Below, piece after piece: positions 1,723 through 34,640 of a stretch of DNA of 35,739 nt (positions are counted from its first letter, which is position 1; each line of letters begins with the position of its first letter). The position numbers and the translations under genes are program-made. This DNA is from a candidate division SR1 bacterium (GTDB lineage Bacteria; Patescibacteriota; Gracilibacteria; Absconditabacterales; Absconditicoccaceae): positions 1-35,739 of the forward strand of contig JAPLUV010000011.1 of assembly GCA_026397395.1 (NCBI GenBank), given 5' to 3'. The notes beneath the pieces are model-generated. The model searched no databases and had not been told where the DNA came from. It worked only from the letters and a program-made list of their open reading frames with translations.

Positions 1723-3060
1723 ATGAACTCTACACTTGTTAAAATAGTCGCTCCTGGATGATCGTACGAAAAGGCTGTAGTCGCCTGCGTTTATGGAGCT
1801 GATGAAGTCTATGTTGGTGTGCCATTTACGTCACTCAGAATGAGACAAAATAAAATCTCATCTTTTGATGAATTGAATAAAACCGTCGAAGCCATTCATT
1901 CGTATGGAAAAAAAGCATTACTCACGATGAATATTTTTCCAAGAAACGCTGACATCAAGATATTCGAAAAGACGGTAGAGCAAATCGCAAATGTATGAGC
2001 AGATGCCATTATTTTTTCCGATCCTGGGACGTTTAACATCATCAAAAAATATATGCCAAACACTCCCCTGCACCTGAGTACGCAGACATCGACTATGAAT
2101 TGGCAGGCAGCTAAATTTCGATATGAACTTGGGGTGAAGAGAATTGTTTTCGCGAGAGAATTAGCTTTGGAGGAAATTAAGGAAATTAGAAAACAAGTCC
2201 CATGACTTGAGATAGAAGTATTTGTCCACGGAGCAATGTGTATGAGTTATTCTGGCCGCTGTTTGCTTGGCGACTATATGAGTGGAAGACCAGGTAATAA
2301 GGGCGAATGCTCGCATGCATGCAGATTTAAATACAAAGTGCGATTGGAAGAAGAACGCAGACCGGGAAAATTATTTCAGCTAGAATGAGATGAAGATGGT
2401 AGTCATATTTTATCATCCAAAGATTTGTGTACGATAGACAAGCTAGGTGAAATCTTGCCTTATGTCGATGCGATAAAAATTGAGTGAAGAAGTAAATCAG
2501 AATTTTATGTAGGAACTATTGTGAAAGCATACAAACATATGCGTGATAGTATCTTGAAAAACAAACAACCTGACCCCAACATCGTGGATCTCGTGAACAA
2601 AATTCCGCATAGAGCATACCGGGATGGCTTCTTATTCAACGGATTAGATCAATACCCCGAATGAGAAGATAAGCAAATCCCTCCCAACCTCCCTTTAACA
2701 AGGGAGGCGCTTGGCTCGTGAGCTACCCCCTTGAGAAAGGGGGTGACGAAGTCGGGGGATTTGAAAACCTCCACTACCTTAGATTCAGCGGGCCCCCTTT
2801 TCAACCGCAATTATTTTTGAACATTTACCGATACATTTATTGAACACAACAAGAAAAAATATTTTGAAATAAATCCGAAAGAAGTAATAGAACCATGAAT
2901 GAAAATTAAATACTTATCACCTGATGACATGGGCAAATTAAAAATAATCGACATTATTAATGAACAGTGAAAGCAGATAGAAAAAGCACATTGCAATACG
3001 GGAAACGTGTATGTATTAACTGATACAAAATTACAAGGCTGGGAGCTTTTATATGAATAG
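1723..3060 (+). CDS. Peptidase U32 family protein with inserted repeat segment
   Basis: A 445-residue protein that needs ten TGA codons read as Gly. The N-terminus (MNSTLVKIVAPGGSYEKAV, then GADEVYVGV) and the Cys-rich signature EVFVHGAMCMSYSGRCLLGD followed by GECSHACRF are classical U32, as is IEGRSKS. The C-terminal 80 residues (from RNYFGTF) match the usual U32 C-terminal beta domain. U32 members include TrhP/RlhA-type enzymes that hydroxylate tRNA or rRNA, and collagenase-like proteins; the exact substrate is not inferable. Odd feature: residues of about 318-347 are encoded by a palindromic repeat element (2675-2762) that keeps the frame open only because a TGA in it is sense. The gene sits nine bases upstream of the next ORF. 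Confidence 0.9.
2675..2762. repeat. Palindromic MITE-like element inside the U32 gene
   Basis: An 88-bp segment bounded by AAATCCCTCCC on the left and GGGGGATTT on the right (terminal inverted repeats). It contains two hairpins, CCTCCCTTTAACAAGGGAGG and CCCCCTTGAGAAAGGGGG. The same family recurs at 34131-34181 and 34600-34637. Here a left-type and a right-type end lie back to back with about 15 bases between. It is translated in frame as part of the U32 protein. Exact boundaries and any target duplication cannot be fixed without an empty site. Confidence 0.75.
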
Positions 3061-33520: not shown

Positions 33521-33940
33521 ATGGAAAAATCTACTGACCTTTTTGACTGATGGAATCAAGCCAAGCAACATATTCATTTTCATTGAGCAACTTGAGACCG
33601 TAATCAATTTTATATCAATGCTAAGGAAGTGCGATATGTAAAATTAGGAATCAATGTATGATACGAACAAGATGGAAAATCTGAATTTAAAAGGGCAATT
33701 CTGGTCATCAAAAAACTTGGTAATCTCTTTCTTATTCTCCCCATGACTACTAAAGAGAAAGATAATTCTTATCACTACAAATTATGAACATTTAGATGAA
33801 GAATGTCCTGGATTATCTTATCTCAAATCAAAACCATAGATAGAAATAGATTTATAGAAAAAATTGGAGAAATTAGTTATAAGGAATTGAAAAATATTAA
33901 AAAAAATCTGAGCAGCTATTATTTCTCAGATTCCTTGTAG
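33521..33940 (+). CDS. MazF/PemK-like protein (putative endoribonuclease toxin)
   Basis: 139 residues, seen only with TGA as Gly (six TGA codons). No standard-code ORF of useful length exists. The core VGYEQDGKSEFKRAILVIKK, then LGNLFLILPMTTKEKDNSYH, follows the MazF/PemK pattern (G-E-Q-x-G, R-P/A-x-L-V, L-P-L-T-S/T-K-x-K). The usual Arg-Pro reads Arg-Ala here. Members usually cleave mRNA and are paired with a small antitoxin. No antitoxin-like ORF precedes it, and a dispersed repeat lies directly upstream. It may be a solitary or degenerate toxin, or a PemK-like protein recruited for another role. The hairpin AATCTGAG...CTCAGATT lies within its last codons. Confidence 0.65.
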
Positions 33941-34202
33941 CCACAGAGTCCTCCGTGGGGAATCCCAATGAAGGGACATTTGTGGTTGAATTATACACAT
34001 TTTTTTATCGTTTTCAAGGAATTTGTGGGGATTCCGTTGGGTCATTAATTTTCTCCCTTGAAAAGATTGCCGGCTTGATTGTCTTAGTTTTTTCCGTTTT
34101 TTTCAAATTTTTGAAGGGTAGAATTGACGGGTGGAGGGCAAACCCTCCCCCAGCCCCTCCCTTGTCAGGGCGGGGAGTTTAATTTATTTTATTCTTAATA
34201 GC
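33941..34202. other. Non-coding repeats between the MazF-like and DUF559 genes
   Basis: A hairpin CCACAGAG-TC-CTCCGTGG lies at 33941-33958 (one mismatch). Then come two related words, GTGGGGAATCCCAATGA (33955-33971) and GTGGGGATTCCGTTGGG (34025-34041). Copy 4 of the dispersed repeat occupies 34049-34125 and the left palindrome of the DUF559 unit 34131-34181. A GTG-started extension of the DUF559 frame into the palindrome is open but unlikely. Confidence 0.6.
34049..34125 (+). repeat. Dispersed repeat, copy 4
   Basis: It matches copy 3 (33410-33485) along ~77 bp, starting TTTTCTCCCTTGAAAA and containing CCGTTTTTTTCAAATTTTT. It abuts the left palindrome of the DUF559 unit. Confidence 0.75.
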
Positions 34203-34640
34203 ATGGAAATAGACAAACTTGGTTATAAGCCATATATTGCTGGGAATACGATTAATGCAAAAAAGATGAGAAATAAACCAACTCCTGCGGAAGACAAGAT
34301 GTGGAAAGAATTTTTAAAATTCAGACCATTAGGATACAAATTTATTAGACAGAAGCCCATCGGCCCATTTATTCTTGATTTTTATTGTTCCAAACTTTTT
34401 CTCGCTGTGGAACTTGATGGAGAAGTTCATAAACAAAGAAAAGAATATGATCAAGAAAGAACAACATATCTTGTGAACCAATGAATCTCTGTTGCGAGAT
34501 ATTGGAATCATGAGGTAATATATAATTCTAAACAAGTATATTATGACCTATTACAATTTATAACCGAGATCCAAAAAGAAAAAATAAAAGAAATTAAAAG
34601 TCCCCCTGACAAGGGGGAATGAGGGGGGTTTGAAAACTAA
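34131..34640 (+). mobile_element. DUF559 gene bounded by inverted palindromic repeats
   Basis: The left end (about 34139-34183) reads CAAACCCTCCCCCAGCCCCT then CCCTTGTCAGGG. The reverse complement of the right end (about 34598-34634) reads CAAACCCCCCTCATTCCCCC then TTGTCAGGG. The two ends are therefore inverted copies flanking one gene. The 88-bp element inside the U32 gene belongs to the same family and looks like the two ends without the gene. Whether the DUF559 product moves these repeats is a hypothesis. Confidence 0.5.
34203..34640 (+). CDS. DUF559 (Vsr-like) endonuclease-domain protein
   Basis: 145 residues from ATG 34203 to TAA 34638-34640. The DUF559 pattern is clear: MRNKPTPAEDKMWKEFLKFR, then GYKFIRQKPIGPFILDFYCS, LAVELDGEVHKQRKEYDQER, and (past a TGA Gly) ISVARYWNHEVIYNSKQVYY. 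The D-F-Y and E-L-D-G residues with the following His/Arg match the PD-(D/E)xK-like nuclease fold of this family, related to Vsr mismatch endonucleases. The last ~13 residues (SPPDKGEGGGFEN) are encoded by the right palindromic repeat, so the repeat forms the natural end of the ORF. Native substrates of DUF559 proteins are not established. Confidence 0.85.

Follow-up and report, generated by a model that had tools for sequence, protein, structure and literature searches.

The window analysed here, a 35,739-nucleotide stretch of DNA from a candidate division SR1 bacterium, carries near its right-hand edge a small nuclease gene lying between palindromic sequences, and the locus raises the question of whether gene and palindromes belong together as a mobile unit. 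The gene encodes a DUF559 (PF04480) Vsr-like nuclease of 145 aa with intact E/D/ExD/H residues, and occupies positions 34203-34640 of the + strand when read in code 25 (TGA=Gly), which is in use in the window and in its genome (1.25 Mb, 39 contigs). The left end, at 34139-34178 (+), reads CAAACCCTCCCCCAGCCCCTCCCTTGTCAGGGCGGGGAG and comprises the outer arm CAAACCC and the hairpin CCCCTCCCTTGTCAGGGCGGGG at 34154-34175, while the right end, at 34600-34633 on the - strand, reads GTCCCCCTGACAAGGGGGAATGAGGGGGGTTTG (reverse complement CAAACCCCCCTCATTCCCCCTTGTCAGGGGGAC) and comprises the hairpin CCCCCTTGTCAGGGGG and an outer arm. A first-pass annotation had described these ends as inverted copies of one CAAACCC-type palindrome, and this is confirmed by alignment, in which both read CAAACCC..CCTTGTCAGGG, and by the scoring of arm pairs across the whole window (60 nt, 450 nt apart), where only 2 of 5,006 pairs match the score of the element. 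These two probably represent the element itself in overlapping frames, because only three values exceed 25; the inverted repeat of the DUF559 unit is thus well above chance within the window.

The right end was also said to encode the end of the open reading frame, which holds under code 25: the last 13 residues of the protein, SPPDKGEGGGFEN*, with SPPDKGEGGGF(EN) as the C-terminal residues, are encoded by this end and the stop codon lies in the flank. The start formerly assigned to the frame, 34131, is unlikely; the conserved DUF559 protein begins at the ATG at 34203, and the left end therefore lies upstream of the gene. The left end matches the end at a second DUF559 gene of the same genome, on contig C39, with 97% identity over 39 nt, as well as the ends of gene-less copies, and the C39 gene possesses the same two ends as the window unit; the right end is 97% identical to the end of a gene-less copy at C1:7010. 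Directly upstream of the element, at 33521-33940, a MazF-like toxin gene is found with no obvious antitoxin partner (weak NCBIfam match). The window further contains five copies, between 31839 and 34715, of a 39-nt repeat, TTTTCTCCCTTGAAAACATTGAC.., of which one long pair (33410, 34049) extends into TTTGTCCGTTTTTTTC..TAGAATT and has the appearance of a promoter region common to both.

The identification of the protein as a Vsr-like nuclease stands. Pfam DUF559 matches it with an E value of 9.7e-29 and 99.9 bits against a curated cut-off of 20.6, the active site is of the Vsr-like type (E, D, ExD, H), and the AlphaFold model (mean pLDDT 87) adopts the Vsr/EDxHD fold, being closest to 3HRL (Z 14.7), followed by the homing endonuclease I-Bth0305I (3R3P; Z 13.1, rmsd 2.0 over 94 residues) and Vsr (Z 10.5). 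Sequence profiles likewise returned 3HRL (3e-35) and I-Bth0305I (2e-4). Among 98 DUF559 domains, five of six catalytic-type positions are invariant and the sixth is changed once, from D to G, which argues for selection for an active nuclease, even in those copies that reside inside host proteins. The E. coli member, YcjD, has earlier been grouped with Vsr (PMC1189080). Rfam identified no intron in the window and no family at the elements, and the window copy is intergenic. As regards other roles, the window yields only weak PADLOC matches, so that a defence system was discarded, and carriage by phages was likewise set aside, a relative of the query occurring in just 3 of 50,697 phage records.

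The association of gene and ends extends far beyond this locus. DUF559 is present in 102 of 192 genomes of the class, with 1-15 copies each, and strict pyrimidine-arm hairpins were observed on both sides of 29 of 64 DUF559 loci of the class, compared to 1 of 384 control pairs drawn from the same 64 loci (p 1e-26); a strict hairpin on at least one side was found at 52 of the 64. Among 80 loci from named genomes, which span Patescibacteria, Pseudomonadota, Planctomycetota, Chloroflexota, Nitrospirota, Nitrospinota and Melainabacteria, 57 exhibit pyrimidine-arm hairpins on both sides, compared to none of 640 control pairs. At several loci (e.g., L376) the upstream hairpin is the reverse complement of the downstream one, and as the asymmetric letters match too, the flanking hairpins are true inverted repeats. 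Furthermore, the ends flanking a given gene resemble each other more closely than they resemble ends from other genomes (p 7e-15 across the 64 class loci). Against a joint history of ends and nuclease, end similarity tracks protein similarity only weakly over all pairs (rho 0.14, with 1 of 1,000 permutations as high). Within the family (49 genomes), 16 of the 28 genomes that possess DUF559 show the end pattern, as do 2 of the 21 that lack it (Fisher p=8e-4, an optimistic value since shared ancestry of the genomes is ignored), while a reversed control pattern gave almost no matches. Of the two DUF559-less genomes, one is only 65% complete and the other has a single weak match.

The palindrome pair thus co-occurs with DUF559, and copies of the ends track the nuclease, as the first-pass annotation anticipated. 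The opposite observation, orthologues devoid of such flanks, was also made in part: strict hairpins are missing from both sides at 12 of the 64 class loci, about a fifth, and only a downstream remnant of the hairpin flank persists at E. coli ycjD, whereas end copies in the absence of DUF559 are rare (the same 2 of 21).

These data bear on the suggestion that DUF559 is a mismatch-repair nuclease of the Vsr type, or a restriction nuclease, and that the hairpins are transcription terminators or neutral repeats. The Vsr fold of the model is in keeping with this, as is the work on Caulobacter, where the DUF559 protein VsrA has been proposed as a mismatch-repair enzyme (PMC12907096). Terminators, however, leave unexplained why hairpins occur on both sides and match as inverted repeats down to their asymmetric letters, and also why gene-less copies sit in frame inside genes, as inserts missing from relatives (see below). 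A terminator-only reading was discarded on these grounds, and the suggestion as a whole is considered highly improbable.

Gene and ends behave as a unit that has gene-less derivatives, in keeping with the layout of an autonomous element suggested earlier. The genome contains five DUF559 genes and, in the 914 kb searched for them, a dozen gene-less two-ended copies, which were sorted into three families. Family A, with ends like those of the window unit, is represented by C1:7010-7106, C1:32467-32560, C3:3736-3819 and C30:33257-33365 of this genome (G000); family B (88-90 nt) by copies on C7, C18, C19, C20 and C30 and by an element within the window at 2674-2763; and family C (112-117 nt) by copies on C20 and C27, the latter adjoining a DUF559 gene. 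The family-A copy on C30 carries CCTTCACAGG in both ends where the other members carry CCTTGTCAGG, and the two ends of one element therefore change together. The flanks of the four family-A copies recur, with CGGGACGCG or CGGGGAACG on one side and often AAAACTAAAATAAA on the other, which could reflect a target preference.

The window element of family B (90 bp, + strand, terminal CAAATCC/GGATTTG) lies in frame within a gene at 1723-3060 (+) that encodes, in code 25 translation, a U32 family, TrhP-like tRNA U34 hydroxylase (NCBIfam NF011996, E 5e-93, below the curated cut-off), and has at least nine further matches in the genome. It had been regarded as the two ends of the nuclease unit with the gene removed; it is indeed a two-ended gene-less element, but it belongs to a sister family, the closer relatives of the unit being those of family A. 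The element is absent from the orthologue in all eight congeners, among which three have different inserts in the same loop, and is accordingly a palindromic element in frame in a protein gene and missing from orthologues, as in the case of Rickettsia palindromic elements (RPEs). In a further congener (G185), the U32 loop harbours a CATTGCGAGG..GAAGCAATC..GCGATGACA type repeat of the same kind as that in its LeuRS loop, which is likely to represent another in-frame repeat family. Moreover, a single-end remnant is located in frame in Tgt on C16, at the same site as a complete DUF559 insertion in the Tgt of another genome (G134).

Complete units inside genes constitute the unexpected part of these findings, lying outside the reading given in the first-pass annotation. 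At least 46 DUF559 domains of the class are situated in frame inside other genes, recognized as long open frames whose two halves form one housekeeping protein, a set chosen in part by open-frame length. The 19 host genes, named from sequence motifs rather than profile scans, include those for LeuRS (three genomes), IleRS, ValRS, LepA, Fmt, MnmA, MiaB, RimO, Tgt, UvrC, Elp3, AroA, RecG, MurD, another Mur ligase, Sua5 and RibE; in Devosia, a unit was read from the translation within CobN. The linkers flanking these domains are translated palindromes, mostly of about 20-60 aa as judged by eye. All six frames are open in 58.6% of strict hairpins, compared to 30.7% of length-matched random stretches, and the scarcity of stops in pyrimidine-only arms fits their survival in reading frames. 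The LeuRS gene of the genome under study (C2:7389-11459) contains a different nuclease-like domain, read as GxxExxY / PD-(D/E)XK type, in frame where a congener has DUF559, with Nudix- and ASCH-like inserts further on, while its LepA gene (C3:22520-23813) is disrupted by a stop-containing stretch of about 600 nt in which a PemK/MazF-like reading frame runs antisense.

Riboflavin synthase, RibE, was surveyed regardless of the presence of an insert: it is present in 66 of 74 genomes of one family, about 17 of the 66 being filled at the same inter-barrel linker, and filled and empty alleles occur together within seven genera (g35, g114, g104, g86, g152, g65 and g117). Such a pattern would be expected of strict homing, in which each nuclease cuts the empty allele of its own host gene, be it at the RibE linker, in LepA or elsewhere, with the ends serving merely as linkers that make the insert tolerable. 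In a tree of the 98 DUF559 domains, whose few columns place deep branching beyond its resolution, the RibE nucleases form nearly a single lineage across many genera (4 label changes compared to at least 12 in shuffles), and the closest fold after 3HRL is that of I-Bth0305I. The same tree, however, requires at least 22 switches among the 19 hosts: the inserts of LepA and Fmt, drawn from two species, cluster together with 100% SH-aLRT support and have ends that are nearly identical (end score 50-52, where the median is 10), those of LeuRS and MiaB, from two genera, make up a second clade (95%), and related nucleases are likewise shared by RimO and a Mur ligase. Free-standing copies between genes and the dispersal of gene-less copies also speak against strict homing, and the RibE linker may simply be permissive; this explanation is judged unlikely. 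As to the choice of target, RibE argues for some specificity, for which survivorship in permissive loops would be the alternative.

Comparison with relatives provides evidence of gain or loss. Sites without the insert, which the first-pass annotation had proposed to seek, were found for U32, LepA and LeuRS, the latter two inserts being missing from other genomes of the same genus, and between Sinorhizobium sp. K101 and Shinella PSBB067, where a block of 767 bp (two gene-less units plus DUF559) in the former corresponds to 9 nt in the latter. In addition, of two close genomes whose DUF559 proteins are 99% identical, one possesses an additional gene-less unit beside the gene. At the window site, neither a DUF559 gene nor such hairpin words were detected upstream of topA in eight congeners, in which the gene order differs there; the region upstream of topA in the congeners (L414-L419) has a conserved motif, GGTTGAAATACGG..AATACAGTA..AAGAGTATTG, probably a promoter or regulatory site. 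A search for target-site duplications in U32, LepA, LeuRS, RibE, Sinorhizobium/Shinella and G177/G205 yielded none that was clean, and exact junctions were not definable either, loops and spacers being too diverged. E. coli ycjD was dismissed as a strain-level empty site, as the eef operon occupies this position in strains that lack ycjD, and the published interpretation is a loss of eef (PMC12817139). Taken over evolutionary time, the mobility of the palindrome-ended elements is well supported.

What moves them is a separate matter, and DUF559 might be a passenger, captured between copies of a repeat whose movement depends on a different enzyme, such as a Y1 transposase or some other nuclease. 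The Sinorhizobium gene does lie between two complete gene-less units in a composite layout, other nuclease domains occupy the same sites, such as the GxxExxY-like domain in the LeuRS described above, and many repeat copies are far from DUF559. Against a passenger role, the association extends across many phyla with active sites retained in essentially every copy, and the in-gene nucleases fall into few lineages (7 changes on the tree compared to at least 26 in 200 shuffles) that switch host gene together with their ends. The passenger explanation is therefore regarded as distinctly improbable.

The explanation that we favour, and hold to be probable, is that of a palindrome-ended mobile element in which a Vsr/EDxHD-type nuclease gene lies between inverted ends, which is spread in a homing-like manner by its own nuclease and which gives rise to gene-less, RPE-like derivatives; the earlier interpretation is thereby partly supported. 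We infer the nuclease to be the driver of movement, and likewise its cut site and the copying route. Each end consists of an outer arm and a hairpin with a mostly pyrimidine 5' arm, with ends and gene moving jointly; loss of the gene would leave short two-hairpin elements that may still be dispersed in trans. Most likely the nuclease introduces a nick or a break at, or close to, either the ends of the element or the empty site, after which the element may be copied into place through homing-like repair of the break or in the form of a hairpin-ended single strand. Units would then land in frame, as C/T-only and A/G-only arms are poor in stops, and persist in permissive loops, where they would be translated and left unspliced.

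Several known systems resemble parts of this arrangement. With REP/REPIN sequences and their RAYTs, to which a parallel had been drawn, the unit shares palindromic end pairs around one gene and dispersed gene-less pairs elsewhere, but membership of that system is not supported: Pfam gives only DUF559 and weaker matches, the enzyme being a PD-(D/E)XK-fold nuclease of the Vsr/EDxHD type and not a Y1 (HUH) transposase, and copies occur in frame within genes. Rpn-type PD-(D/E)XK nuclease-family transposases represent a family different from DUF559; their nuclease has been suggested to act as the mobiliser, much as in the present reading, while to our knowledge no palindromic end pairs are associated with them. 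EDxHD/Vsr-like homing endonucleases such as I-Bth0305I are similar in fold, in sequence and in repeatedly occupying a single site within one gene, but here the inserts are read through in frame, with no intron matched in the window and no intein apparent by eye in the linkers, and hairpin ends and gene-less derivatives are additional. The Sinorhizobium units flanking DUF559 (L380, L381; about 120 bp, with two large palindromes) may resemble RIME1, identity with which is no more than a lead; the query region has matches, chiefly through the repeat, in more than 60 plasmid records of Sinorhizobium. The Rhizobium-specific intergenic mosaic elements (RIME) are named in PMC2573895. RPEs are described, in the excerpted text of PMC10969869, as short, palindromic and in frame in unrelated protein genes, and that excerpt names no mobilising enzyme for them; the likeness, which is one of description and not of RPE sequences, lies in the in-frame palindromic inserts, and the difference lies in the existence here of a nuclease-coding version with the same kind of ends and of whole nuclease domains in housekeeping genes.

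More tentatively, and with somewhat more doubt than confidence, the elements may constitute a phylum-spanning mobile class with neither transposase, intron nor intein, in which a Vsr-like nuclease, bounded by hairpin ends with few stops, homes into the reading frame of essential genes and persists there as a translated, unspliced domain, and whose gene-less kin include RPE-like and RIME-like repeats. Among open-access PMC articles that name DUF559, PF04480 or YcjD, neither titles nor search matches hinted at palindromic ends, which is weak evidence of novelty given that most subscription journals fall outside that collection. In several groups, the palindromic repeats present within and between bacterial genes have for years had no known mobiliser, and a specific candidate enzyme with matching ends, together with the filled and empty RibE alleles and the conservation of the active site, renders the question approachable. 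If the reading is correct, RPE-like and RIME-like repeats would gain a mobiliser, and an explanation would be available for many 'DUF559 domain-containing' annotations as well as for unusual protein linkers (of the PLPPEEG- and SPSP-GEG-type). It would also mean that a nuclease can propagate within essential enzymes, aminoacyl-tRNA synthetases among them, as an additional domain that is not spliced out, a way of life of which we know of no description.
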